Source of the DNA: Clusia tigrina
Taxonomy: Eukaryota; Arthropoda; Insecta; Diptera; Clusiidae
Assembly: GCA_920105625.2 (NCBI GenBank)
Contig: OV050030.1
Location: 165,019,860-165,083,859 of the forward strand
Reading direction: 5' to 3'
DNA length: 64,000 nt
This document shows, piece by piece, positions 1-64,000 of the stretch. The position numbers and the translations under genes were made by a program. Numbering within the stretch: the first letter of the stretch is position 1; each line of letters starts with the position of its first letter. The notes under the pieces are model-generated. The model was given only the letters and a program-made list of their open reading frames with translations. It ran no database searches and was not told the origin of the DNA.

Positions 1-213
1 TTACAATTTCTTGTGAAGATTCGTCAGTAGACATAGTTGTCACCTTTTTACCGTATTCATTCATTAAATGTGAGTAAGTCGATAGTCGTCAATTCTGTGT
101 ATATGAAGATTATTTTTGTAACGAATTTATTGACAAGACAAGTTACAACAGTAGTTGCAATTGCGTATGTGGTTATACCACCGTAATAATTGTTCAATAG
201 AAGAAGAAGAATT

Positions 214-286
214 ATTGAAACATTTTTTTGGCAGATCTTATAGCTATTTCGGACACACCACTTGCCCTCATCAGAGATCTTTCAAT
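214..286 (-). ncRNA. Hammerhead ribozyme, first copy in window
   Basis: The core CTGATGA and GAAA are intact. Stem II carries GGGC opposite GTCC, so one pair is a G-U wobble, and the loop has a T where most copies have C. Predicted cleavage is between 239 and 238. Expected to be functional if folded. Confidence 0.88.
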
Positions 287-878
287 GAAAGGCAATTTTT
301 CCCCAAGCATTTTTTATTATGTCTCAGAAATCAACAGCACACCAATTATGGACCCTCCCAGGAATCGAATCTGGGTCTACAGCTGTTGTAATCTGTCCAG
401 CCAGACAACTACGCTAACTGCAGGTGGTGAACTGACTGATCAAATTCTGTTCATGTACTGTCTCATTCCACCACACACTCTAATCAACTCTGTCTCATTA
501 TTACCCCTCTTTTGTTCCGTTAGGTGTCTCTATCTGTTTTTTTTATTACATTTCAGTGGTGTCATAGTACATTGATTTTGTTAGTGGCAGGCTAATTAAG
601 CCTAATCACACTAACCTTCTAAGGATACAATCTATAAAGATTACAATCTCTTGTGAAGATTCGTCAGTAGACATAGTTGTCACCTTTTTACCGTATTCAT
701 TCTGTTAATGTGAGTAAGTCGATAGTCGTCAATCCTGTGTATATGAAGATTATTTTTGTAACGAATTTATTGACAAGACAAGTTACAAGAGTAGTTGCAA
801 TTGCGTATGTGGTTATGCCACCGTAATAATTTTTCAGAATAAGAAGAAGAATTATTGAAACATTTTTTTGGCAGATTT
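239..878 (-). repeat. Representative cleavage-to-cleavage unit (predicted 640-nt RNA monomer)
   Basis: This is the interval between two successive predicted self-cleavage sites, read on the minus strand. In that direction it starts with AGATCT-type sequence (stem I 3' side), then the pyrimidine (TTC)n tract, a spacer of about 250 nt, the CAGGCT hairpin region, a (GA)n stretch, the tRNA-like segment, and the 5' side of the ribozyme ending in ATAGCTATA. Two AGATCT (BglII) sites 42 bp apart occur in most units because both arms of stem I have the same palindromic sequence. The predicted product would carry a 5'-hydroxyl and a 2',3'-cyclic phosphate, as all hammerhead products do, and could be ligated into a circle. 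Circularisation is inference. Confidence 0.8.
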
Positions 879-2134: not shown

Positions 2135-2207
2135 TTGAAACATTTTTTTTGGCAGTTCTTATAGCTATTTCGGACACGCCAATTGTCCTCATCAGAGATC
2201 TTTCAAT
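2135..2207 (-). ncRNA. Hammerhead ribozyme with stem I mismatch
   Basis: The 3' side of stem I reads AGAACT against AGATCT, leaving an A-A mismatch in the middle of the six-base helix. Core and stem II are intact, with one loop II base changed. Confidence 0.75.
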
Positions 2208-5200: not shown

Positions 5201-6793
5201 CGATAGTCGTCAATCCTGTGTATATGAAGATTATTTTTGTAACGAATTTATTGACAAGACAAGCTACAACAGTAGTTGCAATTGCGTATGTGGTTATGCC
5301 ACCGTTATAATTTTTCAGAAGAAGAAGAAGAATTATTGAAACATTTTTTTGGCAGATCTTATAGCTATTTCGGACACACCACTTGTCCTCATCAGAGATC
5401 TTTCAATGAAAGGCAATTTTTCCCCAAGCATTTTTTATTATGTCTCAGAAATCAACAACACACCAATTATGAACCCTCCCAGGAATCGAAACTGGGTCTA
5501 CAGCTGTTGTAATCTGTCCATCCAGACAACTACGCTAACTGTAGATGGTGAACTGACTGATCAAATTCTGTTCATGGACTGTCTCAATCCACCACACACT
5601 CTAATCAACTCTGTCTCATTATTACCCCTCTTTTGTTCCGTGAGGTCTCTCTCTCTGTTTTTTTATTACATTTCAGTGGTTTCATAGTACATTGCTTTTG
5701 TTAGTGGCAGGCTAATTAAGCCTGATCACACTAACCTTCTAAGGATACATTCTATAAAGTTTACAATTTATTGTGAAGATTCGTTAGTAGACATAGTTGT
5801 CACCTTTTTACCGTATTCATTCTGAGAATGTGAGTAAGTCGATAGTCGTCAATTCTGTGTATATGAAGATTATTTTTGTAACGAATTTATTGACAAGACA
5901 AGTGACAACAGTAGTTGCAATTGCGTATGTGGTTATGCCACCGTAATAATTTTTCAGAAGAAGAAGAAGAATTATTGAAACATTTTTTTGGCATGTCTTA
6001 TAGCTATTTCGGACTCGCCACTTGTCCTCATCAGAGATCTTTCAATGAAAGGCAATTTTTCCCCAAGCATTTTTTATTATGTCTCAGAAATCAACAGCAC
6101 ACCAATTATGAACCCTCCCAGGAATCGAACCTGGGTCTACAGCTGTTGTAATCTGTCCATCCAGAAAACTACGCTAACTGCAGATGGTGAACTGACTGAT
6201 CAAATTCTGTTCATGGACTGTCTCATTCCACCACACACTCTAATCAACTCTGTCTCATTATTACCCCTCTTTTGTTCCGTTAGGTCTCTCTCTCTGTTTT
6301 TTTTATTACATTTCAGTGGTGTCATAGTACATTGCTTTTGATCTGCCAAAAAATGCTTCAATAATTCTTCTTCTTCTTCTGAAAAATTATTACGGTGGCA
6401 TAACCACATACGCAATTGCAACTACTGTTGTAACCTGTCTTGTCAATAAATTCGTTACAAAAATAATCTTCATATACACAGGATTGACGACTATCGACTT
6501 ACTCACATTAACAGAATGAGTACGGTAAAAAGGTGACAACTATGTCTACTGACGAATCTTCACAAGATATTGCAAACTTTATAGATTGTATCCTTAGAAG
6601 GTTAGTGTGATCAAGCTTAATTAGCCTGCCACTAACAAAACCAATGTACTATGACACCACTGAAATGTAATAAAAAAACAGAGAGAGAGACCAAACGGAA
6701 CAAAAGAGGGGTAATAATGAGACAGAGTTGATTAGAGTGTGTAGTGGATTGAGACAGTCCATGAACAGAATTTGATCAGTCAGTTCACCATCT

Positions 6794-6862
6794 GCAGTTA
6801 GCGTAGTTGTCTGGATGGACAGATTACAACAGCTGTAGACCCAGGTTCGATTCCTGGGAGGG
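6794..6862 (+). promoter_or_regulatory. tRNA-like polymerase III promoter segment, inverted copy 1
   Basis: The A-box-like TAGCGTAGTTGT is at 6799-6810 and the perfect B box GGTTCGATTCC at 6844-6854. The ribozyme at 6929 lies downstream on the same strand. Confidence 0.75.
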
Positions 6863-6928
6863 TTCATAATTGGTGTGCTGTTGATTTCTGAGACATAATA
6901 AAAAATGCTTGGGGAAAAATTGCCTTTC

Positions 6929-7001
6929 ATTGAAAGATCTCTGATGAGGACAAGTGGCGTGTCCGAAATAGCTATAAGATCTGCCAAAAAAATGTTTCAA
7001 T
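6929..7001 (+). ncRNA. Hammerhead ribozyme in inverted block, copy 1
   Basis: Consensus motif on the plus strand: ATTGAA at 6929-6934, CTGATGA at 6941-6947, stem II GGACA/TGTCC, GAAA at 6965-6968, ATA cleavage triplet at 6974-6976, AGATCT at 6977-6982, TTCAAT at 6996-7001. Cleavage is expected between 6976 and 6977. The motif can be read directly here without reverse complementing. Confidence 0.93.
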
Positions 7002-7432
7002 AATTCTTCTTCTTCCTCTGAAAAATTATTACGGTGGCATAACCACATACGCAATTGCAACTACTGTTGTAGCTTGTCTTGTCAATAAATTCGTTACAAA
7101 AATAGTCTTCATATACACAGAATTGACGACTATCGACTTACTCACATTCTCAGAATGAATACGGTAAAAAGGTGACAACTATGTCTACTAACGAATCTTC
7201 ACAAGAAATTGTAAACTTTATAGAATGTATCCTTAGAAGGTTAGTGTGATCAGGCTTAATTAGCCTGCCACTAACAAAAGCAATGTACTATGGCACCACT
7301 GAAATGTAATAAAAAAACAGAGAGAGAGACCTAACGGAACAAAAGAGGGGTAATAATGAGACAGGGTTGATTATAATGTGTGGTGGAATGAGACAGTCCA
7401 TGAACAGAATTTGATCAGTCAGTTCACCACCT

Positions 7433-7501
7433 GGTGCTAGCGTAGTTGTCTGGATGAACAGATTACAACAGCTGTAGACCCAGGTTCGATTCCTGGGAGG
7501 G
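7433..7501 (+). promoter_or_regulatory. tRNA-like polymerase III promoter segment, inverted copy 2
   Basis: The A-box-like sequence is at 7438-7449 and the perfect B box at 7483-7493, 75 bp before the ribozyme at 7568. This copy is of the TGCTAGCG subtype just upstream of the A box. Confidence 0.75.
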
Positions 7502-7567
7502 TTCATAATTGGTGTGCTGTTGATTTCTGAGACATAATAAAAAATGCTTGGGGAAAAATTGCCTTTC

Positions 7568-7640
7568 ATTGAAAGATCTCTGATGAGGACAAGTGGCGTG
7601 TCCGAAATAGCTATAAGATCTGCCAAAAAAATGTTTCAAT
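7568..7640 (+). ncRNA. Hammerhead ribozyme in inverted block, copy 2
   Basis: All core positions and both stems match the consensus. Cleavage is expected between 7615 and 7616, 639 nt after the previous site, so one complete monomer could be released from a transcript of this block. Confidence 0.93.
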
Positions 7641-7937
7641 AATCCTTCTTCTTCTTCTTCTGAAAAATTATTACGGTGGCATAACCACATACGCAATTGC
7701 AACTACTGTTGTAGCTTGTCTTGTCAATAAATTCGTTACAAAAATAATCTTCATATACACAGGATTGACGACTATCGACTTACTCACTTTAACAGAATGA
7801 ATACGGTAAAAAGGAGACAACTATGTCTACTGACGAATCTTCACAAGAGATTGTAATCTTTATAGATTGTATAATTAGAAGGTTAGTGTGATCATTTATT
7901 ATGTCTCAGAAATCAACAGCACACCAATTATGACCCC

Positions 7938-8007
7938 TCCCAGGAATCGAACCTGGGTCTACAGCTGTTGTAATCTGTCCATCCAGACAACTACGCTAAC
8001 TGCAGAT
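7938..8007 (-). promoter_or_regulatory. Orphan tRNA-like segment without its ribozyme
   Basis: The B box is at 7943-7953 and the A-box-like sequence at 7987-7998 on the minus strand. This forward unit is truncated at about 7894, so the ribozyme normally found downstream is missing. Minus-strand transcripts from here would run straight into the inverted block. Confidence 0.72.
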
Positions 8008-10693
8008 GGTGAACTGACTGATCAAATTCTGTTCATGGACTGTCTCATTCCACCACACACTCTAATCAACTCTGTCTCATTATTATCCCACTTTTGTTCC
8101 GATCGGTCTCTCTCTGTTTTTTTATTACATTTCAGGGGTGTCATAGTACATTGCTTTTGTTAGTGGCAGGCTAATTAAGCCTGATCACACTAACCTTCTA
8201 AGGATATATTCTATAAAGTTTACAATTTCTTGTGAAGATTCGTCAGTAGATATAGTTGTCACCTTTTTACCGTATTCATTCATTAAATGTGAGTAAGTCG
8301 ATAGTCGTCAATTCTGTGTATATGAAGATTATTTTTGTAACGAATTTATTGACAAGACAAGTTACAACAGTAGTTGCAATTGCGTATGTGGTTATGTCAC
8401 CGTAATAATTGTTCAAAAGAAGAAGAAGAATTATTGAAACATTTTTTTGGCAGATCTTATAGCTATTTCGGACACGCCACTTGTCCTCATCAGAGATCTT
8501 TCAATGAAAGGCAATTTTTCCCCAAGCATTTTTTATTATGTCTCAGAAATCAACAGCACACCAATTTTGAACCCTCCCAGGAATCGAACCTGGGTCTACA
8601 GCTGTTGTAATCTGTCCATCCAGACAACTGCGCTAACTGCAGATGGTGAACTGACTGATCAAATTCTGTTCATGGACTGTCTCATTCCACCACACACTCT
8701 AATCAACTCTGTCTCATTATTACCCCTCTTTTGTTCCGTTAGGTCTCTCTCTCTGTTTTTTTATTACATTTCAGTGGTGTCATAGTACATTGCTTTTGTT
8801 AGTGGCAGGCTAATTAAGCCTGATCACACTAACCTTCTAAGGATACAATCTATAAAGATTACAATCTCTTGTGAAGATTCGTCAGTAGACATAGTTGTCT
8901 CCTTTTTACCGTATTCATTCTGTTAATGTGAGTAAGTCGATAGTCGTCAATCCTGTGTATATGAAGATTATTTTTGTAACGAATTTATTGACAAGACAAG
9001 CTACAACAGTAGTTGCAATTGCGTATGTGGTTATGCCACCGTAATAATTTTTCAGAAGAAGAAGAAGAAGGATTATTGAAACATTTTTTTGGCAGATCTT
9101 ATATCTATTTCGGACACGCCACTGGTCCTCATCAGAGATCTTTCAATGAAAGGCAATTTTTCCCCAAGCATTTTTTATTATGTCTCAGAAATCAACAGCA
9201 CACCAATTATGAACCCTCCCAGGAATCGAACCTGGGTCTACAGCTGTTGTAATCTGTTCATCCAGACAACTACGCTAGCACCAGGTGGTGAACTGACTGA
9301 TCAAATTCTGTTCATGGACTGTCTCATTCCACCACACATTATAATCAACTCTGTCTCATTATTACCCCTCTTTTGTTCCGTTAGGTCTCTCTCTCTCTGT
9401 TTTTTTATTACATTTCAGTGGTGCCATAGTACATTGCTTTTGTTAGTGGCAGGCTAATTAAGCCTGATCACACTAACCTTCTAAGGATACATTCTATAAA
9501 GTTTACAATTTCTTGTGAAGATTCGTTAGTAGACATAGTTGTCACCTTTTTACCGTATTCATTCTGAGAATGTGAGTAAGTCGATAGTCGTCAATTCTGT
9601 GTATATGAAGATTATTTTTGTAACGAATTTATTGACAAGACAAGTGACAACAGTAGTTGCAATTGCGTATGTGGTTATGCCACCGTAATAATTTTTCAGA
9701 AGAAGAAGAAGAATTATTGAAACATTTTTTTGCCATGTCTTATAGCTATTTCGGACTCGCCACTTGTCCTCATCAGAGATCTTTCAATGAAAGGCAATTT
9801 TTCCTCAAGCATTTTTTATTATGTCTCAGAAATCAACAGCACACCAATTATGAACCCTCCCAGGAATCGAACCTGTGTCTACAGCTGTTGTAATCTGTCC
9901 ATCCAGAGAACTACGCTAACAGCAGGTGGTGAACTGACTGATCAAATTCTGTTCATGTACTGTCTCATTCCACCACACACTCTAATCAACTCTGTCTCAT
10001 TATTACCCCTCTTTTGTTCCGTGAGGTCTCTCTCTCTGTTTTTTTATTACATTTCAGTGGTGTCATAGTACATTGCTTTTGTTAGTGGCAGGCTAATTAA
10101 GCCTGATCACACTAACCTTCTAAGGATACATTCTATAAAGTTTACAATTTCTTTTGAAGATTCGTCAGTAGACATAGTTGTCACCTTTTTACCGTATTCA
10201 TTCTGTTAATGTGAGTAAGTCGATAGTCGTCAATCCTGTGTATATGAAGATTATTTTTGTAACGAATTTATTGACAAGACAAGCTACAACAGTAGTTGCA
10301 ATTGCGTATGTGGTTATGCCACCGTAATAATTTTTCAGAGGAAGAAAAAGAATTATTGAAACATTTTTTTGGCAGATCTTATAGCTATTTCGGACACGCC
10401 ACTTGTCCTCATCAGAGATCTTTCAATGAAAGGCAATTTTTCCCCAAGCATTTTTTATTATGTCTCAGAAATCAACAGCACACCAATTATGAACCCTCCC
10501 AGGAATCGAACCTGGGTCTACAGCTGTTGTAATCTGTCCATCCAGACAACTACGCTAACTGCAGACGGTGAACTGACTGATCAAATTCTGTTCATGGACT
10601 GTCTCAATCCACTACACACTCTAATCAACTCTGTCTCATTATTACCCCTCTTTTGTTCCGTGAGGTCTCTCTCTCTGTTTTTTTATTACATTT

Positions 10694-15000: not shown

Positions 15001-18000
15001 CAGACAACTACGCTAACAGCAGGTGGTGAACTGACTGATCAAATTCTGTTCATGTACTGTCTCATTCCACCACACACTCTAATCAACTCTGTCTCATTAT
15101 TACCCCTCTTTTGTTCCGTTAGGTCTCTCTCTCTGTTTTTTTATTACATTTCAGTGGTGTCATAGTACATTGGTTTTGTTAGTTGCAGGCTAATTAAGCT
15201 TGATCACACTAACCTTCTAAGGATACAATCTATAAAGTTTGCAATCTCTTGTGAAGATTCGTCAGTAGACATAGTTGTCACCTTTTTACCGTACTCATTC
15301 TGTTAATGTGAGTAAGTCGATAGTCGTCAATCCTGTGTATATGAAGATTATTTTTGTAACGAATTTATTGACAAGACAGGTTACAACAGTAGTTGCAATT
15401 GCGTATGTGGTTATGCCACCGTAATAATTTTTCAGAAGAAGAAGAAGAATTATTGAAACATTTTTTTGGCATATCTTATAGCTATTTCGGACACGCCACT
15501 TGTCCTCATCAGAGATCTTTCAATGAAAGGCAATTTTTCCCCAAGCATTTTTTATTATGTCTCAGAAATCAACAGCACACCAATTATGAACCCTCCCAGG
15601 AATCGAACCTGGGTCTACAGCTGTTGTAATCTGTCCATCCAGACAACTACGCTAACAGCAGGTGGTGAACTGACTGATCAAATTCTGTTCATGTACTGTC
15701 TCATTCCACCACACACTCTAATCAACTCTGTCTCATTATTACCCCTCTTTTGTTCCGTTAGGTCTCTCTCTCTGTTTTTTTATTACATTTCAGTGGTGTC
15801 ATAGTACATTGGTTTTGTTAGTTGCAGGCTAATTAAGCTTGATCACACTAACCTTCTAAGGATACAATCTATAAAGTTTGCAATCTCTTGTGAAGATTCG
15901 TCAGTAGACATAGTTGTCACCTTTTTACCGTACTCATTCTGTTAATGTGAGTAAGTCGATAGTCGTCAATCCTGTGTATATGAAGATTATTTTTGTAACG
16001 AATTTATTGACAAGACAGGTTACAACAGTAGTTGCAATTGCGTATGTGGTTATGCCACCGTAATCATTTTTCAGAAGAAGAAGAAGAATTATTGAAACAT
16101 TTTTTTGGCATATCTTATAGCTATTTCGGACACGCCACTTGTCCTCATCAGAGATCTTTCAATGAAAGGCAATTTTTCCCCAAGAATTTTTTATTATGTC
16201 TCAGAAATCAACAGCACACCAATTATGAACCCTCCCAGGAATCGAACCTGGGTCTACAGCTGTTGTAATCTGTCCATCCAGACAACTACGCTAACAGCAG
16301 GTGGTGAACTGACTGATCACATTCTGTTCATGTACTGTCTCATTCCACCACACACTCTAATCAACTCTGTCTCATTATTACCCCTCTTTTGTTCCATTAG
16401 GTCTCTCTCTCTGTTTTTTTTATTACATTTCAGTGGTGTCATAGTACATTGGTTTTGTTAGTGGCAGGCTAATTAAGCTTCATCACACTAACCTTCTAAG
16501 GATACAATCTATAAAGTTTGCAATCTCTTGTGAAGATTCGTCAGTAGGCATAGTTGGCACCTTTTTACCGTACTCATTCTGTTAATGTGAGTAAGTCGAT
16601 AGTCGTCAATCCTGTGTATATGAAGATTATTTTTGTAACGAATTTATTGACAAGACAGGTTACAACAGTAGTTGCAATTGCGTATGTGGTTATGCCACCG
16701 TAATAATTTTTCAGAAGAAGAAGAAGAATTATTGAAACATTTTTTTGGCAGATCTTATAGCTATTTCGGACACGCCACTTGTCCTCATCAGAGATCTTTC
16801 AATGAAAGGCAATTTTTCCCCAAGCATTTTTTATTATGTCTCAGAAATCAACAGAACACCAATTATGAACCCTCCCAGGAATCGAACCTGGGTCTACAGC
16901 TGTTGTAATCTGTCCATCCAGACAACTACGCTAACTGCAGGTGGTGAACTGACTGATCAAATTCTGTTCATGTACTGTCTCATTCCACCACACACTCTAA
17001 TCAACTCTGTCTCATTATTACCCCTCTTTTGTTCCGTTAGGTCTCTCTCTCTGTTTTTTTATTACATTTCAGTGGTGTCATAGTACATTGCTTTTGTTAG
17101 TGGCAGGCTAATTACGCCTGATCACACTAACCTTCTAAGGATACATTCTATAAAGTTTACAATTTCTTGTGAAGATTCGTTAGTAGACATAGTTGTCACC
17201 TTTTTACCGTATTCATTCTGAGAATGTGAGTAAATCGATAGTCGTCACTTCTGTGTATATGAAGATTATTTTTGTAACGAATTTATTGACAAGACAAGTG
17301 ACAACAGTAGTTGCAATTGCGTATGTGGTTATGCCACCGTAATGATTTTTCAGAAGAAGAAGAATAATTATTGAAACGTTTTTTGGCAGGTCTTATAGCT
17401 ATTTCGGACACGCCACTTGTCCTCATCAGAGATCTTTCAATGAAAGGCAATTTTTCCCCAAGCATTTTTGATTATGTCTCAGAAATCAACAGCACACCAA
17501 TTATGAACCCTCCCAGGAATCGAACCTGAGTCTACAGCTGTTGTAATCTGTCCATCCAGACAACTACGCTAACAGCAGGTGGTCAACTGACTGATCAAAT
17601 TCTGTTCATGTACTGTCTCATTCCCCCACACACTCTAATCAACTCTGTCTCATTATTACCCCTCTTTTGTTCCGTTAGGTCTCTCTCTCTGTTTTTTTAT
17701 TACATTTCAGTGGGGTCATAGTACATTGCTTTTGTTAGTGGCAGGCTAATTACGCATGATCACACAAACCTTCTAAGGATACAATCTATAAAGATTACAA
17801 TCTCTTGTGAAGATTCGTCAATAGACATAGTTGCCACCTTTTTACCGTATTCATTCTGTTAATGTGAGTAAGTCGATAGTCGTCAATCCTGTGTATATGA
17901 AGATTATTTTTGTAACGAATTTATTGACAAGACAAGTTACAACAGTAGTTGCAATTGCATATGTGGTTATGCCAGCGTAATAATTTTTCAGAAGAAGAAG

Positions 18001-33350: not shown

Positions 33351-33974
33351 TGGCAGATCTTATAGCTATTTCGGACACGCCACTTGTCCTCATCAGAGAT
33401 CTTTCAATGAAAGGCAATTTTTCCCCAAGCATTTTTTATTATGTCTCAGAAATCAACAGCACACCAATTATGAACCCTCCCAGGAATCGAACCTGGGTCT
33501 ACAGCTGTTGTAATCTGTCCATCCAGACAACTACGCAAACAGCAGGTGGTGAACTGACTGATCAAATTCTGTTCATGTACTGTCTCATTCCACCACACAC
33601 TCTAATCAACTCTGTCTCATTATTACCCCTCTTTTGTTCCGTTAGGTCTCTCTCTCTGTTTTTTTATTACATTTCAGTGGTGTCATAGTACATTCCTTTT
33701 GTTAGTGGCAGGCTAATTAAGCCTGATCACACTAACCTTCTAAGGATACATTCTATAAAGTTTACAATTTCTTGTGAAGATTCGTCAGTAGACATAGTTG
33801 TCACCTTTTTACCGTATTCATTCTGTTAATGTGAGTAAGTCGATAGTCGTCATTTCTGTGTATATAAAGATTATTTTTGTAACGAATTTATTGACAAGAC
33901 AAGTTACAACAGTAGTTGCAACTGCGTATGTGGTTATGCCACCGTAATAATTTGTCAGAAGAAGAAGAAGAATT

Positions 33975-34047
33975 ATTGAAACATTTTTTCGGCAGATCTT
34001 ATATCTATTTTGGACACGCCACTTGTCCTCATCAGAGATCTCTCAAT
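33975..34047 (-). ncRNA. Hammerhead ribozyme with core G12 changed (predicted inactive)
   Basis: Plus-strand position 34011 is T where other copies have C, so the core GAAA reads AAAA. G12 is a catalytic guanine of the hammerhead and its loss is expected to abolish cleavage. Stem III is the AUAGAUAU variant. Confidence 0.8.
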
Positions 34048-37000
34048 GAAAGGCAATTTTTCCCCAAGCATTTCTTATTATGTCTCAGAAATCCACAGCA
34101 CACCAATTATGGACCCTCCCAGGAATCGAACCTGGGTCTACAGCTGTTGTAATCTATCCATCCAGATAACTCCGCCAACTGCAGGTGGTGAACTGACTGA
34201 TCAAATTCTGTTCATGTACTGTCTCATTCCACCACACACTCTAATCAACTCTGTCTCATTATTACCCCTCTTTTGTTCCATTAGGTCTCTCTCTCTGTTT
34301 TTTTATTACATTTCAGTGGTGTCATAGTACATTGGTTTTGTTAGTGGCAGGCTAATTAAGCTTGATCACACTAACCTTCTAAGGATACAATCTATAAAGT
34401 TTGCAATCTGTTGCGAAGATTCGTCAGTAGATATAGTTGTCACCTTTTTACCGTATTCATTCTGTTACTGTGAGTAAGTCGATAGTCGTCAATCCTGTGT
34501 ATATGAAGATAATTTTTGTAACGAATTTATTGACAAGACAGGTTACAACAGTAGTTGCAATTGCGTATGTGGTTATGCCACCGTAATAATTTTTCAGAAG
34601 AAGAAGAAGAATTATTGAAACATTTTTTTGGCAGATCTTATAGCTATTTCGGACACGCCACTTGTCCTCATCAGAGATCTTTCAATGAAAGGCAATTTTT
34701 CCCCAAGCATTTTTTATTATGTCTCAGAAATCAACAGCACACCAATTATGAACCCTCCCAGGAATCGAACCTGGGTCTACAGCTGTTGTAATCTGTCCAT
34801 CCAGACAACTACGCTAACTGCAGGTGGTGAACTGACTGATCAAATTCTGTTCATGTACTGTCTCATTCCACCACACACTCTAATCAACTCTGTCTCATTA
34901 TTACCCCTCTTTTGTTCCGTTAGGTCTCTCTCGCTGTTTTTTTATTACATTTCAGTGGTGTCATAGTACATTCCTTTTGTTAGTGGCAGGCTTATTAAGC
35001 CTGATCACACTAACCTTCTAAGGATACATTCTATAAAGTTTACAATTTCTTGTGAAGATTCGTTAGTAGACATAGTTGTCACCTTTTTACCGTATTCATT
35101 CTGTGAATGTGAGTAAGTCGATAGTCGTCAATTCTGTGTATATGAAGATTATTTTTGTAACGAATTTATTGACAAGACAAGTTACAACAGTAGTTGCAAT
35201 TGCGTATGTGGTTATGGCACCGTAAGAATTTTTCAGAAGAAGAAGAAGAATTATTGAAAAATTTTTTTTGGCAGATCTTATACCTATTTCGGACACGCCA
35301 CTTGTCCTCATCAGAGATCTTTCAATGAAAGGCAATATTTCCCCAAACATTTTTTTATTATGTCTCAGAAATCAACAGCACACCAATTATGGACCCTCCC
35401 AGGAATCGAACCTGGGTCTACAGCTGTTGTAATCTATCCATCCAGATAACTCCGCCAACTGCAGGTGGTGAACTGACTGATCAAATTCTGTTCATGTACT
35501 GTCTCATTCCACCACACACTCTAATCAACTCTGTCTTATTATTACCCCTCTTTTGTTCCGTTAGGTCTCTCTCTCTGTTTTTTTATTACATTTCAGTGGT
35601 GTCATAGTACATTCCTTTTGTTAGTGGCAGGCTAATTAAGCCTGATCACACTAACCTTCTAAGGATACATTCTATAAAGTTTACAATTTCTTGTGAAGAT
35701 TCGTCAGTAGACATAGTTGTCACCTTTTTACCGTATTCATTCATTAAATGTGAGTAAGTCGATAGTCGTCAATTCTGTGTATATGAAGATTATTTTTGTA
35801 ACGAATTTATTGACAAGACAAGTTACAACAGTAGTTGCAATTGCGTATGTGGTTATGCCACCGTAATAATTTTTCAGAAGAAGAAGAAGAATTAATCAAA
35901 CATTTTTTTGGCAGATCTTATAGCTATTTCGGACACGCCACTTGTCGTCATCAGAGATCTTTCAATGAAAGGCAATTTTTCCCCAAGCATTTTTTATTAT
36001 GTCTCAGAAATCAACAGCACACCAATTATGAACCCTGCCAGGAATCGAACCTGGGTCTACAGCTGTTGTAATCTGTCCATCCAGACAACTACGCTAACTG
36101 CAGGTGGTGAACTGACTGATCAAATTCTGTTCATGTACTGTCTCATTCCACCACACACTCTAATCAACTCTGTCTCATTATTACCCCTCTTTTGTTCCGT
36201 TAGGTCTCTCTCTCTGTTTTTTTATTACATTTCAGTGGTGTCATAGTACATTCCTTTTGTTAGTGGCAGGCTAATTAAGCCTGATCACACTAACCTTCTA
36301 AGGATACATTCTATAAAGTTTACAATTTCTTGTGAAGATTCGTTAGTAGACATAGTTGTCACCTTTTTACCGTATTCATTCTGTGAATGTGAGTAAGTCG
36401 ATAGTCGTCAATTCTGTGTATATGAAGATTATTTTTGTAACGAATTTATTGACAAGACAAGTTACAACAGTAGTTGCAATTGCGTATGTGGTTATGCCAC
36501 CGTAATGATTTTTCAGAAGAAGAAGAATAATTATTGAAACGTTTTTTGGCAGATCTTATAGCTATTTCGGACACGCCACTTGTCCTCATCAGAGATCTTT
36601 CAATGAAAGGCAATTTTTCCCCAAGCATTTTTTATTATGTCTCAGAAATCAACAGCACACCAATTATGAACCCTCCCAGGAATCGAACCTGGGTCTACAG
36701 CTGTTGTAATCTGTCCATCCAGACAACTACGCAAACAGCAGGTGGTGAACTGACTGATCAAATTCTGTTCATGTACTGTCTCAATCCACCACACACTCTA
36801 ATCAACTCTGTCTTATTATTACCCCTCTTTTGTTCCGTTAGGTCTCTCTCTCTGTTTTTTTATTACATTTCAGTGGTGTCATAGTACATTCCTTTTGTTA
36901 GTGGCAGGCTAATTAAGCCTGATCACACTAACCTTCTAAGGATACATTCTATAAAGTTTACAATTTCTTGTGAAGATTCGTTAGTAGACATAGTTGTCAC

Positions 37001-37809
37001 TTTTTTACCGTATTCATTCTGTGAATGTGAGTAAGTCGATAGTCGTCAATTCTGTGTATATGAAGATTATTTTTGTAACGAATTTATTGACAAGACAAGT
37101 TACAACAGTAGTTGCAATTGCGTATGTGGTTATGCCACCGTAATGATTTTTCAGAAGAAGAAGAATAATTATTGAAACGTTTTTTTGGCAGATCTTATAG
37201 CTATTTCGGACACGCCACTTGTCCTCATCAGAGATCTTTCAATGAAAGGCAATTTTTCCCCAAGCATTTTTTATTATGTCTCAGAAATCAACAGCACACC
37301 AATTATGAACCCTCCCAGGAATCGAACCTGGGTCTACAGCTGTTGTAATCTGTCCATCCAGACAACTACGCAAACAGCAGGTGGTGAACTGACTGATCAA
37401 ATTCTGTTCATGTACTGTCTCATTCCACCACACACTCTAATCAACTCTGTCTCATTATTACCCCTCTTTTGTTCCGTTAGGTCTCTCTCTCTGTTTTTTT
37501 ATTACATTTCAGTGGTGTCATAGTACATTCCTTTTGTTAGTGGCAGGCTAATTAAGCCTGATCACACTAACCTTCTAAGGATACATTCTATAAAGTTTAC
37601 AATTTCTTGTGAAGATTCGTCAGTAGACATAGTTGTCACCTTTTTACCGTATTCATTCTGTTAATGTGAGTAAGTCGATAGTCGTCATTTCTGTGTATAT
37701 AAAGATTATTTTTGTAACGAATTTATTGACAAGACAAGTTACAACAGTAGTTGCAACTGCGTATGTGGTTATGCCACCGTAATAATTTGTCAGAAGAAGA
37801 AGAAGAATT

Positions 37810-37882
37810 ATTGAAACATTTTTTCGGCAGATCTTATATCTATTTTGGACACGCCACTTGTCCTCATCAGAGATCTCTCAAT
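37810..37882 (-). ncRNA. Hammerhead ribozyme with core G12 changed (predicted inactive)
   Basis: This is the copy of the 33999 locus in the second 3,835-bp block. It has the same C-to-T change on the plus strand at 37846, so the mutation was spread by block duplication. Confidence 0.8.
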
Positions 37883-40800
37883 GAAAGGCAATTTTTCCCC
37901 AAGCATTTCTTATTATGTCTCAGAAATCCACAGCACACCAATTATGGACCCTCCCAGGAATCGAACCTGGGTCTACAGCTGTTGTAATCTATCCATCCAG
38001 ATAACTCCGCCAACTGCAGGTGGTGAACTGACTGATCAAATTCTGTTCATGTACTGTCTCATTCCACCACACACTCTAATCAACTCTGTCTCATTATTAC
38101 CCCTCTTTTGTTCCATTAGGTCTCTCTCTCTGTTTTTTTATTACATTTCAGTGGTGTCATAGTACATTGGTTTTGTTAGTGGCAGGCTAATTAAGCTTGA
38201 TCACACTAACCTTCTAAGGATACAATCTATAAAGTTTGCAATCTGTTGCGAAGATTCGTCAGTAGATATAGTTGTCACCTTTTTACCGTATTCATTCTGT
38301 TACTGTGAGTAAGTCGATAGTCGTCAATCCTGTGTATATGAAGATAATTTTTGTAACGAATTTATTGACAAGACAGGTTACAACAGTAGTTGCAATTGCG
38401 TATGTGGTTATGCCACCGTAATAATTTTTCAGAAGAAGAAGAAGAATTATTGAAACATTTTTTTGGCAGATCTTATAGCTATTTCGGACACGCCACTTGT
38501 CCTCATCAGAGATCTTTCAATGAAAGGCAATTTTTCCCCAAGCATTTTTTATTATGTCTCAGAAATCAACAGCACACCAATTATGAACCCTCCCAGGAAT
38601 CGAACCTGGGTCTACAGCTGTTGTAATCTGTCCATCCAGACAACTACGCTAACTGCAGGTGGTGAACTGACTGATCAAATTCTGTTCATGTACTGTCTCA
38701 TTCCACCACACACTCTAATCAACTCTGTCTCATTATTACCCCTCTTTTGTTCCGTTAGGTCTCTCTCGCTGTTTTTTTATTACATTTCAGTGGTGTCATA
38801 GTACATTCCTTTTGTTAGTGGCAGGCTTATTAAGCCTGATCACACTAACCTTCTAAGGATACATTCTATAAAGTTTACAATTTCTTGTGAAGATTCGTTA
38901 GTAGACATAGTTGTCACCTTTTTACCGTATTCATTCTGTGAATGTGAGTAAGTCGATAGTCGTCAATTCTGTGTATATGAAGATTATTTTTGTAACGAAT
39001 TTATTGACAAGACAAGTTACAACAGTAGTTGCAATTGCGTATGTGGTTATGGCACCGTAAGAATTTTTCAGAAGAAGAAGAAGAATTATTGAAAAATTTT
39101 TTTTGGCAGATCTTATACCTATTTCGGACACGCCACTTGTCCTCATCAGAGATCTTTCAATGAAAGGCAATATTTCCCCAAACATTTTTTTATTATGTCT
39201 CAGAAATCAACAGCACACCAATTATGGACCCTCCCAGGAATCGAACCTGGGTCTACAGCTGTTGTAATCTATCCATCCAGATAACTCCGCCAACTGCAGG
39301 TGGTGAACTGACTGATCAAATTCTGTTCATGTACTGTCTCATTCCACCACACACTCTAATCAACTCTGTCTTATTATTACCCCTCTTTTGTTCCGTTAGG
39401 TCTCTCTCTCTGTTTTTTTATTACATTTCAGTGGTGTCATAGTACATTCCTTTTGTTAGTGGCAGGCTAATTAAGCCTGATCACACTAACCTTCTAAGGA
39501 TACATTCTATAAAGTTTACAATTTCTTGTGAAGATTCGTCAGTAGACATAGTTGTCACCTTTTTACCGTATTCATTCATTAAATGTGAGTAAGTCGATAG
39601 TCGTCAATTCTGTGTATATGAAGATTATTTTTGTAACGAATTTATTGACAAGACAAGTTACAACAGTAGTTGCAATTGCGTATGTGGTTATGCCACCGTA
39701 ATAATTTTTCAGAAGAAGAAGAAGAATTAATCAAACATTTTTTTGGCAGATCTTATAGCTATTTCGGACACGCCACTTGTCGTCATCAGAGATCTTTCAA
39801 TGAAAGGCAATTTTTCCCCAAGCATTTTTTATTATGTCTCAGAAATCAACAGCACACCAATTATGAACCCTGCCAGGAATCGAACCTGGGTCTACAGCTG
39901 TTGTAATCTGTCCATCCAGACAACTACGCTAACTGCAGGTGGTGAACTGACTGATCAAATTCTGTTCATGTACTGTCTCATTCCACCACACACTCTAATC
40001 AACTCTGTCTCATTATTACCCCTCTTTTGTTCCGTTAGGTCTCTCTCTCTGTTTTTTTATTACATTTCAGTGGTGTCATAGTACATTCCTTTTGTTAGTG
40101 GCAGGCTAATTAAGCCTGATCACACTAACCTTCTAAGGATACATTCTATAAAGTTTACAATTTCTTGTGAAGATTCGTTAGTAGACATAGTTGTCACCTT
40201 TTTACCGTATTCATTCTGTGAATGTGAGTAAGTCGATAGTCGTCAATTCTGTGTATATGAAGATTATTTTTGTAACGAATTTATTGACAAGACAAGTTAC
40301 AACAGTAGTTGCAATTGCGTATGTGGTTATGCCACCGTAATGATTTTTCAGAAGAAGAAGAATAATTATTGAAACGTTTTTTGGCAGATCTTATAGCTAT
40401 TTCGGACACGCCACTTGTCCTCATCAGAGATCTTTCAATGAAAGGCAATTTTTCCCCAAGCATTTTTTATTATGTCTCAGAAATCAACAGCACACCAATT
40501 ATGAACCCTCCCAGGAATCGAACCTGGGTCTACAGCTGTTGTAATCTGTCCATCCAGACAACTACGCAAACAGCAGGTGGTGAACTGACTGATCAAATTC
40601 TGTTCATGTACTGTCTCAATCCACCACACACTCTAATCAACTCTGTCTTATTATTACCCCTCTTTTGTTCCGTTAGGTCTCTCTCTCTGTTTTTTTATTA
40701 CATTTCAGTGGTGTCATAGTACATTCCTTTTGTTAGTGGCAGGCTAATTAAGCCTGATCACACTAACCTTCTAAGGATACATTCTATAAAGTTTACAATT

Positions 40801-43800
40801 TCTTGTGAAGATTCGTTAGTAGACATAGTTGTCACTTTTTTACCGTATTCATTCTGTGAATGTGAGTAAGTCGATAGTCGTCAATTCTGTGTATATGAAG
40901 ATTATTTTTGTAACGAATTTATTGACAAGACAAGTTACAACAGTAGTTGCAATTGCGTATGTGGTTATGCCACCGTAATGATTTTTCAGAAGAAGAAGAA
41001 TAATTATTGAAACGTTTTTTTGGCAGATCTTATAGCTATTTCGGACACGCCACTTGTCCTCATCAGAGATCTTTCAATGAAAGGCAATTTTTCCCCAAGC
41101 ATTTTTTATTATGTCTCAGAAATCAACAGCACACCAATTATGAACCCTCCCAGGAATCGAACCTGGGTCTACAGCTGTTGTAATCTGTCCATCCAGACAA
41201 CTACGCTAACAGCAGGTGGTGAACTGACTGATCAAATTCTGTTCATGTACTGTCTCATTCCACCACACACTCTAATCAACTCTGTCTCATTATTACCCCT
41301 CTTTTGTTCCGTTAGGTCTCTCTCTCTGTTTTTTTTATTACATTTCAGTGGTGTCATAGTACATTCCTTTTGTTAGTGGCAGGCTAATTAAGCCTGATCA
41401 CACTAACCTTCTAAGGATACATTCTATAAAGTTTACAATTTCTTGTGAAGATTCGTCAGTAGACATAGTTGTCACCTTTTTACCGTATTCATTCATTAAA
41501 TGTGAGTAAGTCGATAGTCGTCAATTCTGTGTATATGAAGATTATTTTTGTAACGAATTTATTGACAAGACAAGTTACAACAGTAGTTGCAATTGCGTAT
41601 GTGGTTATGCCACCGTAATAATTTTTCAGAAGAAGAAGAAGAATTAATCAAACATTTTTTTGGCAGATCTTATAGCTATTTCGGACACGCCACTTGTCGT
41701 CATCAGAGATCTTTCAATGAAAGGCAATTTTTCCCCAAGCATTTTTTATTATGTCTCAGAAATCAACAGCACACCAATTATGAACCCTCCCAGGAATCGA
41801 ACCTGGGTCTACAGCTGTTGTAATCTGTCCATCCAGACAACTACGCTAACTGCAGTTGGTGAACTGACTGATCAAATTCTGTTCATGTACTGTCTCATTC
41901 CACCACACACTCTAATCAACTCTGTCTCATTATTACCCCTCTTTTGTTCCGTTAGGTCTCTCTCTCTGTTTTTTTATTACATTTCAGTGGTGTCATAGTA
42001 CATTCCTTTTGTTAGTGGCAGGCTAATTAAGCTTGATCACACTAACCTTCTAAGGATACAATCTATAAAGTTTGCAATCTCTTGTGAAGATTCGTCAGTA
42101 GACATAGTTGTCACCTTTTTACCGTACTCATTCTGTTAATGTGAGTAAGTCGATAGTCGTCAATCCTATGTATATGAAGATTATTTTTGTAACGAATTTA
42201 TTGACAAGACAGGTTACAACAGTAGTTGCAATTGCGTATGTGGTTATGCCACCGTAATAATTTTCAGAAGAAGAAGAAGAATTATTGAAACATTTTTTTG
42301 GCAGATCTTATAGCTATTTCGGACACGCCACTTGTCCTCATCAGAGATCTTTCAATGAAAGGCAATTTTTCCCCAAGCATTTTTTATTATGTCTCAGAAA
42401 TCAACAGCACACCAATTATGAACCCTCCCAGGAATCGAACCTGGGTCTACAGCTGTTGTAATCTGTCCATCCAGACAACTACGCAAACAGCAGGTGGTGA
42501 ACTGACTGATCAAATTCTGTTCATGTACTGTCTCATTCCACCACACACTCTAATCAACTCTGTCTCATTATTACCCCTCTTTTGTTCCGTTAGGTCTCTC
42601 TCTCTGTTTTTTTATTACATTTCAGTGGTGTCATAGTACATTCCTTTTGTTAGTGGCAGGCTAATTAAGCCTGATCACACTAACCTTCTAAGGATACATT
42701 CTATAAAGTTTACAATTTCTTGTGAAGATTCGTTAGTAGACATAGTTGTCACCTTTTTACCGTATTCATTCTGTGAATGTGAGTAAGTCGATAGTCGTCA
42801 ATTCTGTGTATATGAAGATTATTTTTGTAACGAATTTATTGACAAGACAACTTACAACAGTAGTTGCAATTGCGTATGTGGTTATGCCACCGTAATGATT
42901 TTTCAGAAGAAGAAGAATAATTATTGAAACATTTTTTGGCAGATCTTATAGCTATTTCGGACACGCCACTTGTCCTCATCAGAGATCTTTCAATGAAAGG
43001 CAATTTTTCCCCAAGCATTTTTTATTATGTCTCAGAAATCAACAGCACACCAATTATGAACCCTCCCAGGAATCGAACCTGGGTCTACAGCTGTTGTAAT
43101 CTGTCCATCCAGACAACTACGCTAACAGCAGGTGGTGAACTGACTGATCAAATTCTGTTCATGTACTGTCTCATTCCACCACACACTCTAATCAACTCTG
43201 TCTCATTATTACCCCTCTTTTGTTCCATTAGGTCTCTCTCTCTGTTTTTTTATTACATTTCAGTGGTGTCATAGTACATTGGTTTTGTTAGTGGCAGGCT
43301 AATTAAGCTTGATCACACTAACCTTCTAAGGATACAATCTATAAAGTTTGCAATCTCTTGTGAAGATTCGTCAGTAGACATAGTTGTCACCTTTTTACCG
43401 TACTCATTCTGTTAATGTGAGTAAGTCGATAGTCGTCAATCCTGTGTATATGAAGATTATTTTTGTAACGAATTTATTGACAAGACAGGTTACAACAGTA
43501 GTTGCAATTGCGTATGTGGTTATGCCACCGTAATAATTTTTCAGAAGAAGAAGAAGAATTATTGAAACATTTTTTTGGCAGATCTTATAGCTATTTCGGA
43601 CACGCCACTTGTCCTCATCAGAGATCTTTCAATGAAAGGCAATTTTTCCCCAAGCATTTTTTATTATGTCTCAGAAATCAACAGCACACCAATTATGAAC
43701 CCTCCCAGGAATCGAACCTGGGTCTACAGCTGTTGTAATCTGTCCATCCAGACAACTACGCAAACAGCAGGTGGTGAACTGACTGATCAAATTCTGTTCA

Positions 43801-46753: not shown

Positions 46754-46826
46754 ATTGAAACGTTTTTTTGGCAGATCTGATAGCTATTTCGGACACGCCA
46801 CTTGTCCTCATCAGAGATCTTTCAAT
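46754..46826 (-). ncRNA. Hammerhead ribozyme with AUC cleavage triplet
   Basis: The plus strand reads AGATCTGATAGC, so H17 is C and not A. NUC triplets are generally cleaved well, so this copy may be more active than the AUA consensus. Core and stem II are intact. Its duplicate lies at 50587-50659 with the same change. Confidence 0.8.
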
Positions 46827-50586: not shown

Positions 50587-50659
50587 ATTGAAACGTTTTT
50601 TTGGCAGATCTGATAGCTATTTCGGACACGCCACTTGTCCTCATCAGAGATCTTTCAAT
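50587..50659 (-). ncRNA. Hammerhead ribozyme with AUC cleavage triplet
   Basis: This is the partner of the 46778 locus at offset 3,833. H17 is C, with core and stem II intact. Confidence 0.8.
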
Positions 50660-58300: not shown

Positions 58301-61300
58301 ATGAAAGGCAATTTTTCCCCAAGCATTTTTTATTATGTCTCAGAAATCAACAGCACACCAATTATGAACCCTCCCAGGAATCGAACCTGGGTCTACAGCT
58401 GTTGTAATCTGTCCATCCAGACAACTACGCAAACAGCAGGTGGTGAACTGACTGATCAAATTCTGTTCATGTACTGTCTCATTCCACCACACACTCTAAT
58501 CAACTCTGTCTTATTATTACCCCTCTTTTGTTCCGTTAGGTCTCTCCCTCTGTTTTTTTATTACATTTCAGTGGTGTCATAGTACATTCCTTTTGTTAGT
58601 GGCAGGCTAATTAAGCCTGATCACACTAACCTTCTAAGGATACATTCTATAAAGTTTACAATTTCTTGTGAAGATTCGTTAGTAGACATAGTTGTCACTT
58701 TTTTACCGTATTCATTCTGTGAATGTGAGTAAGTCGATAGTCGTCAATTCTGTGTATATGAAGATTATTTTTGTAACGAATTTATTGACAAGACAAGTTA
58801 CAACAGTAGTTGCAACTGCGTATGTGGTTATGCCACCGTAATAATTTTTCAGAAGAAGAAGAAGAATTATTGAAACATTTTTTCGGCAGATCTTATATCT
58901 ATTTCGGACACGCCACTTGTCCTCATCAGAGATCTTTCAATGAAAGGCAATTTTTCCCCAAGCATTTTTTATTATGTCTCAGAAATCAACAGCACACCAA
59001 TTATGAACCCTCCCAGGAATCGAACCTGGGTCTACAGCTGTTGTAATCTGTCCATCCAGACAACTACGCTAACTGCAGGTGGTGAACTGACTGATCAAAT
59101 TCTGTTCATGTACTGTCTCATTCCACCACACACTCTAATCAACTCTGTCTCATTATTACCCCTCTTTTGTTCCGTTAGGTCTCTCTCGCTGTTTTTTTAT
59201 TACATTTCAGTGGTGTCATAGTACATTCCTTTTGTTAGTGGCAGGCTTATTAAGCCTGATCACACTAACCTTCTAAGGATACATTCTATAAAGTTTACAA
59301 TTTCTTGTGAAGATTCGTTAGTAGACATAGTTGTCACCTTTTTACCGTATTCATTCTGTGAATGTGAGTAAGTCGATAGTCGTCAATTCTGTGTATATGA
59401 AGATTATTTTTGTAACGAATTTATTGACAAGACAAGTTACAACAGTAGTTGCAACTGCGTATGTGGTTATGCCACCGTAATAATTTTTCAGAAGAAGAAG
59501 AAGAATTATTGAAACATTTTTTGGCAGATCTTATAGCTATTTCGGACACGCCACTTGTCGTCATCAGAAATCTTTCAATGAAAGGCAATTTTTCCCCAAG
59601 CATTTTTTATTATGTCTCAGAAATCAACAGCACACCAATTATGAACCCTCCCAGCAATCGAACCTGGGTCTACAGCTGTTGTAATCTGTTCATCCAGACA
59701 ACTACGCTAGCACCAGGTGGTGAACTGACTGATCAAATTCTGTTCATGTACTGTCTCATTCCACCACACAATCTAATCAACTCTGTCTCATTATTACCCC
59801 TCTTTTGTTCCGTTAGGTCTCTCTCTCTGTTTTTTTATTACATTTCAGTGGTGTCATAGTACATTCCTTTTGTTAGTGGCAGGCTAATTAAGCCTGATCA
59901 CACTAACCTTCTAAGGATACATTCTATAAAGTTTACAATTTCTTGTGAAGATTCGTCAGTAGACATAGTTGTCACCTTTTTACCGTATTCATTCTGTGAA
60001 TGTGAGTAAGTCGATAGTCGTCAATTCTGTGTATATGAAGATTATTTTTGTAACGAATTTATTGACAAGACAAGTTACAACAGTAGTTGCAATTGCGTAT
60101 GTGGTTATGCCACCGTAATGATTTTTCAGAAGAAGAAGAATAATTATTGAAACGTTTTTTGGCAGATCTTATAGCTATTTCGGACACGCCACTTGTCCTC
60201 ATCAGAGATCTTTCAATGAAAGGCAATTTTTCCCCAAGCATTTTTTATTATGTCTCAGAAATCAACAGCACACCAATTATGAACCCTCCCAGGAATCGAA
60301 CCTGGGTCTACAGCTGTTGTAATCTGTCCATCCAGACAACTACGCAAACAGCAGGTGGTGAACTGACTGATCAAATTCTGTTCATGTACTGTCTCATTCC
60401 ACCACACACTCTAATCAACTCTGTCTTATTATTACCCCTCTTTTGTTCCGTTAGGTCTCTCCCTCTGTTTTTTTATTACATTTCAGTGGTGTCATAGTAC
60501 ATTCCTTTTGTTAGTGGCAGGCTAATTAAGCCTGATCACACTAACCTTCTAAGGATACATTCTATAAAGTTTACAATTTCTTGTGAAGATTCGTTAGTAG
60601 ACATAGTTGTCACTTTTTTACCGTATTCATTCTGTGAATGTGAGTAAGTCGATAGTCGTCAATTCTGTGTATATGAAGATTATTTTTGTAACGAATTTAT
60701 TGACAAGACAAGTTACAACAGTAGTTGCAATTGCGTATGTGGTTATGCCACCGTAATGATTTTTCAGAAGAAGAAGAATAATTATTGAAACGTTTTTTTG
60801 GCAGATCTTATAGCTATTTCGGACACGCCACTTGTCCTCATCAGAGATCTTTCAATGAAAGGCAATTTTTCCCCAAGCATTTTTTATTATGTCTCAGAAA
60901 TCAACAGCACACCAATTATGAACCCTCCCAGGAATCGAACCTGGGTCTACAGCTGTTGTAATCTGTCCATCCAGACAACTACGCTAACAGCAGGTGGTGA
61001 ACTGACTGATCAAATTCTGTTCATGTACTGTCTCATTCCACCACACACTCTAATCAACTCTGTCTCATTATTACCCCTCTTTTGTTCCGTTAGGTCTCTC
61101 TCTCTGTTTTTTATTACATTTCAGTGGTGTCATAATACATTGCTTTTGTTAGTGGCAGGCTAATTAAGCCTGATCACACTAACCTTCTAAGGATACATTC
61201 TATAAAGTTTACAATTTCTTGTGAAGATTCGTCAGTAGACATAGTTGTCACCTTTTTACCGTATTCATTCTGTTAATGTGAGTAAGTCGATAGTCGTCAA

Positions 61301-64000
61301 TTCTGTGTATATAAAGATTATTTTTGTAACGAATTTATTGACAAGACAAGTTACAACAGTAGTTGCAACTGCGTATGTGGTTATGCCACCGTAATAATTT
61401 TTCAGAAGAAGAAGAAGAATTATTGAAACATTTTTTCGGCAGATCTTATATCTATTTCGGACACGCCACTTGTCCTCATCAGAGATCTTTCAATGAAAGG
61501 CAATTTTTCCCCAAGCATTTTTTATTATGTCTCAGAAATCAACAGCACACCAATTATGAACCCTCCCAGGAATCGAACCTGGGTCTACAGCTGTTGTAAT
61601 CTGTCCATCCAGACAACTACGCTAACTGCAGGTGGTGAACTGACTGATCAAATTCTGTTCATGTACTGTCTCATTCCACCACACACTCTAATCAACTCTG
61701 TCTCATTATTACCCCTCTTTTGTTCCGTTAGGTCTCTCTCGCTGTTTTTTTATTACATTTCAGTGGTGTCATAGTACATTCCTTTTGTTAGTGGCAGGCT
61801 TATTAAGCCTGATCACACTAACCTTCTAAGGATACATTCTATAAAGTTTGCAATTTCTTGTGAAGATTCGTTAGTAGACATAGTTGTCACCTTTTTACCG
61901 TATTCATTCTGTGAATGTGAGTAAGTCGATAGTCGTCAATTCTGTGTATATGAAGATTATTTTTGTAACGAATTTATTGACAAGACAAGTTACAACAGTA
62001 GTTGCAATTGCGTATGTGGTTATGCCACCGTAATGATTTTTCAGAAGAAGAAGAATAATTATTGAAACGTTTTTTGGCAGATCTTATAGCTATTTCGGAC
62101 ACGCCACTTGTCCTCATCAGAGATCTTTCAATGAAAGGCAATTTTTCCCCAAGCATTTTTTATTATGTCTCAGAAATCAACAGCACACCAATTATGAACC
62201 CTCCCAGGAATCGAACCTGGGACTACAGCTGTTGTAATCTGTCCAGCCAGACAACTACGCTAACTGCAGGTGGTGAGCTGACTGATCAAATTCTGTTCAT
62301 GTACTTTCTCATTCCACCACACACTCTAATCAACTCTGTCTCATTATTACCCCTCTTTTGTTCCGTTAGGTCTCTCTCTCTGTTTTTTTATTACATTTCA
62401 GTGGTGTCATAGTACATTGGTTTTGTTAGTGGCAGGCTAATTAAGCTTGATCACATTCTAAGGATACAATCTATAAAGTTTGCAATCTCTTGTGAAGATT
62501 CGTCAGTAGACATAGTTGTCACCTTTTTACCGTACTCATTCTGTTAATGTGAGTAAGTCGATAGTCGTCAATTCTGTGTATATGAAGATTATTTTTGTAA
62601 CGAATTTATTGACAAGACAGGTTACAACAGTAGTTGCAATTGCGTATGTGGTTATGCCACCGTAATAATTTTTCAGAAGAGGAAGAAGAATTATTGAAAC
62701 ATTTTTTTGGCAGATCTTATAGCTATTTCGGACACGCCACTTGTCCTCATCAGAGATCTTTCAATGAAAGGCAATTTTTCCCCAAGCATTTTTTATTATG
62801 TCTCAGAAATCAACAGCACACCAATTATGAACCTCCCAGGAATCGAACCTGGGTCTACAGCTGTTGTAATCTGTCCATCCAGACAACTACGCTAACTGCA
62901 GGTGGTGAACTGACTGATCAAATTCTGTTCATGTACTGTCTCATTCCACCACACACTCTAATAAACTCTGTCTCATTATTACCCCTCTTTTGTTCCGTTA
63001 GGTCTCTCTCTCTGTGTTTTTATTACATTTCAGTGGTGTCATAGTACATTGCTTTTGGTAGTGGCAGGCTAATTACGCCTGATCACACAAACCTTCTAAG
63101 GATACAATCTATAAAGATTACAATCTCTTGTGAAGATTCGTCAATAGACATAGTTGTCACCTTTTTACCGTATTCATTCTGTTAATGTGAGTAAGTCGAT
63201 AGTCGTCAATCCTGTGTATATGAAGATTATTTTTGTTACGAATTTATTGACAACACAAGTTACAACAGTAGTTGCAATTGCGTATGTGGTTATGCCACCG
63301 TAATGATTTTTCAGAAAAAGAAGAATAATTATTGAAACGTTTTTTGGCAGATCTTATAGCTATTTCGGACACGCCACTTGTCCTCATCAGAGATCTTTCA
63401 ATGAAAGGCAATTTTTCCCCAAGCATTTTTTATTATGTCTCAGAAATCAACAGCACACCAATTATGAACCCTCCCAGGAATCGAACCTGGGTCTACAGCT
63501 GTTGTAATCTGTCTATCCAGACAACTACGCAAACAGCAGGTGGTGAACTGACTGATCAAATTCTGTTCATGTACTGTCTCATTCCACCACACACTCCAAT
63601 CAACTCTGTCTCATTATTATCCCTCGTTTGTTCCGTTAGGTCTCTCTCTCTGTTTTTTTATTACATTTCAGTGGTGTCATAGTACATTCCTTTTGTTAGT
63701 GGCAGGCTAATTAAGCCTGATCACACTAACCTTCTAAGGATACATTCTATAAAGTTTACAATTTCTTGTGAAGATTCGTTAGTAGACATAGTTGTCACCT
63801 TTTTACCGTATTCATTCTGTGAATGTGAGTAAGTCGATAGTCGTCAATTCTGTGTATATGAAGATCATTTTTGTAACGAATTTATTGACAAGACAAGTTA
63901 CAACAGTAGTTGCAATTGCGTATGTGGTTATGCCACCGTAATGATTTTTCAGAAGAAGAAGAATAATTATTGAAACGTTTTTTGGCAGATCTTATAGCTA
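55361..64000. repeat. Right forward block, continues past window
   Basis: Predicted cleavage points: 55703, 56341, 56980, 57616, 58254, 58893, 59531, 60169, 60808, 61446, 62084, 62717, 63354, and 63992 (ribozyme cut by the window end). Units 57616-58254 recur at 59531-60169 (offset 1,915) and 58893 matches 61446 (offset 2,553). The stretch of about 62.44-63.27 kb carries the 6-bp deletion and GACAACACAAG marks of the 51.9-55.1 kb block, so it is a third, displaced copy of part of it. Confidence 0.9.

Follow-up and report, generated by a model that had tools for sequence, protein, structure and literature searches.

A 638-639-bp satellite with a probable type I hammerhead ribozyme and a tRNA-like RNA polymerase III promoter

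Satellite units and their hammerhead motif

The 64-kb stretch of DNA shown above (1..64000; hereafter the window) was found to be a single satellite array with a period of 638-639 bp, which extends to both window ends and carries a type I hammerhead ribozyme motif together with a tRNA-like stretch upstream of it on the same strand. Using the first 639 bases as a BLAST query, a total of 102 unit segments were matched, 99 of them in the same direction and the other 3 inverted. Thereof, 98 were full-length units, with a mean pairwise identity of 0.969 (range 0.942-1.000). The period was supported by the BLAST segments, the alignment and the motif spacing, which was mostly 638-639: with a looser motif pattern that caught 92 motifs, the hammerhead-to-hammerhead distance was 639 in 30 of 91 intervals and 638 in 25. 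These values agree with the first-pass annotation of the window, which had described a satellite of ~100 copies with a 639-bp unit. The alignment consensus comprised 638 columns because the BLAST segments omit one base at unit junctions; likewise, the unit used as an example below (16518..17155, minus strand) covers 638 of 639 bp. Tandem Repeats Finder, for which the longest period is 500, reported nothing in the window.

The G+C content of the window was 37% (23808/64000). Among the seven open reading frames (ORFs) listed in bases 1-2600, the four that were searched gave no Pfam match at an expectation value (E) up to 1, and a protein search with one ORF found no relative within the same E limit. 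No DNA relatives were found among plasmids with one unit as query, in viral contigs with three exact unit patterns, or in prokaryote genome contigs with two; these negatives carry little weight because the collections are viral, plasmid and prokaryote.

The CTGATGA element occurred 99 times, 97 times on the minus strand and twice on the plus strand. By alignment column, a gapless type I hammerhead was present in 99 of the 102 segments, and the three segments without a complete motif were two truncated ones at an inversion (6340-6575 and 7895-8218) and one unit interrupted by the end of the window. In the consensus motif, AGATCT pairs with AGATCT as a stem I of 6 bp, stem II has 5 bp and a 7-nt loop, and CTGATGA, GAAA, the A15.1-U16.1 pair and A17, an allowed base at the cut site, are all present, in agreement with what had been proposed. 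This arrangement is that of a type I hammerhead, namely the core CUGANGA...GAAA with A15.1-U16.1 and H17, stems II and III closed and stem I open. In the example unit, the motif was located at 16750..16797 (minus strand) by the descriptor and by covariance model R1 (20.0 bits; both described below), and the predicted cut lies between 16756 and 16755, after A17. In the computed fold of the motif region, stem I extended past an internal loop.

The catalytic core (scored as C3, U4, G5, A6, G8, A9, G12, A13, A14, A15.1, U16.1 and H17, the last being any base except G) was intact in 94 of the 99 gapless copies, and the five broken ones consisted of four with G12A and one with A14G. Core and all 13 tested stem pairs were kept in 69 copies. 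Pair failures were most frequent at 10.1-11.1 (12 copies), followed by 2.4-1.4, 2.5-1.5 and 10.5-11.5 (six each), 15.2-16.2 (three), 2.2-1.2 (two) and 10.4-11.4 (one). The earlier claim of a complete hammerhead in all 99 loci thus stood for the gapless layout and failed for the state of core and pairs, and its restriction to one strand was contradicted by two hammerheads (6935-6982 and 7574-7621) that lie on the plus strand within an inverted block. The broken copies, the inversion and the tRNA-like promoter had all been overlooked. Position 17 was A in 97 copies and C in two; the C17 copies (46773-46820 and 50606-50653, minus strand) were the top scorers with R1 (27.0 bits).

tRNA-like promoter upstream of the hammerhead

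A tRNA-like stretch was identified at consensus 210-292 (16864..16946 in the example unit, minus strand) on the basis of the consensus, the fold and a match to the Rfam tRNA model, below threshold, in another unit, and the hammerhead begins at consensus 359, ~80 nt past box B. Both boxes of an RNA polymerase III (Pol III) internal promoter were found on the minus strand within this stretch. Box A (TAGCGTAGTTG; consensus 223, 16923..16933) fitted a strict pattern in 75 of the 98 full units, and box B (GGTTCGATTCC; consensus 268-278, 16878..16888), which lies in a T-arm-like hairpin, was exact in 94. The two boxes occurred together in 71 units; such a pair is expected by chance at ~1e-5 per unit (3 matches in 400 million bases). 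The Rfam tRNA model gave 17.1 bits in bases 1-2000, under its cut-off of 29, and ARAGORN called no tRNA, so that the stretch is at best a degenerate head of the type found in short interspersed nuclear elements (SINEs).

On the hammerhead strand, the consensus contained no run of four T (T4), and 79 of the 98 units had none. Such runs numbered 43 on one strand of the window vs 865 on the other, and T4-free stretches were up to 21 units long (among 96 full units in the main orientation). In addition, a (CTT)n run was present soon after the hammerhead (16717-16726 and equivalents, consensus 430-439); if a SINE begins at the tRNA-like head, this run could be its simple-repeat tail.

Judged from its sequence, the array very probably represents a genuine type I hammerhead satellite of the same general kind as Sm-alpha and the retrozymes, and its unit is unusually long. 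The reading that we favor, with a probability of roughly 0.7, is that of a non-coding, SINE-like monomer in which a tRNA-derived Pol III promoter precedes a type I hammerhead with dimer-type cleavage, which begins ~80 nt past box B. The internal promoter is predicted to transcribe the unit, two hammerheads of one transcript would act together as a dimer through the palindromic AUAGCUAU, and the transcripts would cut themselves into ~639-nt monomers. Transcription, the use of Pol III, cleavage, circles and past retrotransposition would all belong to such a life cycle.

The possibility that the unit is a fragment of a Penelope-like/Terminon retroelement turned satellite was also considered. Those elements bear minimal type I hammerheads with a short stem III (PMC7761336), as the units do. 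The reverse transcriptase expected in a unit of this origin did not appear among the ORFs searched against Pfam (four of seven, bases 1-2600), and a tRNA-like head is not described for these elements in the excerpted text of that review, which makes this origin highly improbable.

Model matches, folding and array growth

The descriptor, which required at least 5 bp in stem I, at least 4 in stem II and at least 2 in stem III, matched 68 loci on the minus strand and 2 on the plus strand. In simulated sequence with the dinucleotide make-up of the unit, it matched 19 times per 2.28 billion bases on one strand, which corresponds to ~1e-5 per unit for both strands. Because the array counts as one independent event and not as 99, this per-unit value is the relevant one, and it bears out the first-pass statement that chance is very unlikely. 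Since the motif was in effect looked for in many windows, the figure is strong and not absolute.

For comparison, viral contigs carrying the general hammerhead pattern (at least 120 stretches) were used as a control. A structural filter applied to the matches listed gave 99 candidates in 74 loci, which are predictions and not tested ribozymes, and covariance model R1 was trained on 28 of 44 non-redundant sequences from this control, i.e., on unrelated predicted hammerheads. At E up to 10, R1 gave 89 matches in the window: 87 were hammerheads (out of 99), and two lay elsewhere in the unit. Consensus copies scored 20.0 bits (E ~4.5e-4 in 64 kb) and the best two 27.0 bits (E 1.6e-6), the E-values being rough. 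With E limited to 1, R1 also found matches in every one of the 20 control loci, several of which were in its training set. Both the descriptor and a model trained independently thus give good support to the initial proposal that nearly every unit contains a type I hammerhead.

Another hairpin of 36 nt (GTTAGTG...CACTAAC around GGCT...AGCC) was found at consensus 25-60, 334/304 nt from the hammerhead and thus about half a unit away (17096-17131 in the example unit; best copies at 14539-14574 and 16457-16492, minus strand). R1 matched it in two units by default settings; with filters off, in 13961-17155, it also scored 15.1 bits in a third unit and 4.4 bits in two more. It looks like a hammerhead's 5' half, including TGATGA in two units, and was rejected as a ribozyme because it has neither GAAA nor stem III. 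An origin of the unit as a dimer of half-size repeats was rejected as well, since the halves share no similarity beyond the overlap of the two compared slices.

In a 100-nt consensus stretch, the pair probability was ~0.66-0.75 for stems I and II and ~0 for stem III. Folded as a hammerhead, the 48-nt motif had -5.2 kcal/mol when stem III was included and -8.0 kcal/mol when it was left out. The stretch that forms stem III, AUAGCUAU, reads as a perfect palindrome, and a double hammerhead reached -27.1 kcal/mol vs -10.4 kcal/mol for two monomers. With so short and palindromic a stem III, activity would be expected mainly as a dimer. Palindromic stem III/loop III sequences and dimer models are known for other type I hammerheads (PMC3088659), and dimers of axolotl repeats cleave better than the poorly active monomers (PMC7229834). 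The whole-unit RNA folded no better than shuffles and is not highly self-paired.

Several observations weigh against the favored reading of a promoter-headed, dimer-cleaving monomer. With regard to folding, a rival monomer fold of the 48-nt motif (-10.6 kcal/mol) beats the hammerhead, the unrestricted dimer minimum (-31.8 kcal/mol) is a non-hammerhead structure, and the motif region was not unusually stable (z -0.38, -1.86 and -0.96 for three lengths), being no better than shuffles at two of the lengths. With regard to sequence, none of the 13 stem pairs was changed on both sides in any of the 99 copies, and core columns were not significantly more conserved than random columns (0.9954 vs 0.9802 for the unit, p 0.12), so that core conservation is no proof of selection. 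C17 is the commoner cut-site base in hammerheads, and A17 is present in 97 of the 99 copies. R1 missed 12 of the 99 hammerheads with default filters, and control hammerheads reached 69.9 bits with it, far above the window copies. For the promoter, strict box A is confined to 75 of 98 units, and shuffles are free of T4 runs with p ~0.05, which makes the T4 absence suggestive only.

Further on this side, the Rfam hammerhead models, named beforehand as the refuting check, gave no match in the whole window at the gathering cut-off, and none in bases 1-2000 or on 68-81-base stretches of three copies when E up to 10 was allowed. The first of these short queries carried mutations in its stems and scored 13.8 bits with R1; the other two were better copies. 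When 20 viral loci bearing the pattern were submitted to Rfam, 12 of them with a candidate that had passed the filter, none reached a hammerhead cut-off either, and the Rfam result is therefore of limited weight. It retains some, since one viral control candidate scored 23.4 bits in a short search (cut-off 34) and the window copies did not score. Viral contig loci with at least two predicted hammerheads within a few kb (L008, L026, L066 and others) were rejected by the type I cut-off. The comparison suggests that this cut-off misses satellites of the present kind and that annotation would under-count them.

The missing Rfam match and covariation, as well as the choice of the window for its motif, by which many windows were in effect tested, would suit an inert sequence that fits the descriptor by chance and was multiplied with the satellite. 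Set against this are a motif expected at ~1e-5 per unit, promoter boxes separately expected at ~1e-5 and lying on the same strand, and an overall make-up known from other elements, and we regard chance resemblance as very unlikely.

The array has been amplified block-wise. The nearest relative of a unit was six units away in 24 of the 98 full units and three units away in 19, and a six-unit block occurs twice in succession (33762-37596 and 37597-41431; together 33762..41431, minus strand), with corresponding units at least 0.995 identical. Each block begins with a unit broken by G12A (33762-34399 and 37597-38234). As three- and six-unit blocks were copied with broken copies included, recent growth is best explained by DNA-level exchange, which is indifferent to ribozyme activity and does not need the ribozyme. 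The inverted block of ~1.55 kb (6340..7894, with both of its hammerheads on the plus strand) was recognized by BLAST, R1 and the alignment; judging from the coordinates, ~20 and ~75 bases were probably lost at its ends. The truncated unit at 7895-8218 adjoins this block.

The copying of broken G12A units within the six-unit duplication also fits a relic, i.e., a former ribozyme-bearing retroelement whose hammerhead is now a passenger of DNA-level amplification, no longer transcribed or used. Core conservation no higher than background and the lack of compensatory changes point in the same direction. Cores that are intact in 94 of 99 copies and promoter boxes still together in 71 of 98 units argue against it, and we consider a relic unlikely, less so than chance resemblance. 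Under the favored reading, two processes can be separated in one array, the processing of RNA by the ribozyme and the DNA-level spread of a satellite that carries broken copies along.

Comparison with known systems

Hammerhead satellites are a known kind, with members in newt, Dolichopoda and schistosomes, and the present one is longer than the reported 150-450 bp. No description of a 639-bp hammerhead unit was found in the open-licence literature, which is a limited test; that the sequence family is undescribed is plausible and unproven.

Metazoan retrozymes without long terminal repeats (non-LTR) are reported with a repeat length of 150-450 bp and RNA lengths of ~170-400 nt (PMC7229834). The array resembles them as a non-coding tandem repeat of low G+C content (below 45%) with a type I hammerhead and a weak stem III, for which dimer activity is reported in axolotl. 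Its 638-639-bp unit lies outside their size range of ~150-450 bp. The first-pass view that the unit is larger than animal retrozymes accordingly holds for the repeats and less so for the RNAs, since the discussion of PMC7229834 mentions circles from 150 to >1000 nt. A Pol III promoter is unmentioned in the searched text of that paper. The newt repeat, at ~330 bp (PMC7229834), is likewise shorter than the 639 bp found here.

The pDo500 satellite of Dolichopoda cave crickets differs in having compensatory stem changes (PMC2837043), of which this array has none, and the term tRNA is absent from PMC2808323, whereas a tRNA-like head is present here. In pDo500, too, the hammerhead region gave no proof of selection (PMC2808323).

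In one review, retrozymes are regarded as a possible novel SINE family (PMC7761336). If the RNA of this array cuts, it would be a long-unit, tRNA-headed addition to the animal hammerhead satellites and would back the view of such repeats as SINE-like, with the Pol III promoter supplying the missing transcription step. A more specific scenario, which we hold only tentatively and consider doubtful, is a Pol III-driven retrozyme, possibly outside schistosomes, in which T-run terminators were lost from the transcribed strand, several units are read through, and dimeric cutting yields ~639-nt monomers and circles, which would exceed the ~170-400 nt known for animal retrozyme RNAs.

The closest parallel is found in schistosomes. 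The Schistosoma mansoni satellites W25.2, W26.2, W27.2 and W36.2 (Sm-alpha) have units of 332-428 bp in ~100 or more copies, and each unit carries a type I hammerhead whose stem III is very short; of five candidates tested in vitro, three cleaved themselves, and defects had been predicted in the remaining two (PMC8490949). Sm-alpha is described as SINE-like and as resembling elements derived from tRNA-Gln-TTG (PMC2770079), so that the make-up found here is matched by schistosome satellites with tested cleavage. The present array shares with them a non-coding unit in ~100 copies, a type I hammerhead with a short stem III and, on the same strand, a tRNA-like head with Pol III boxes; the likeness is drawn from published descriptions, and the unit here is 639 bp as against 332-428 bp.

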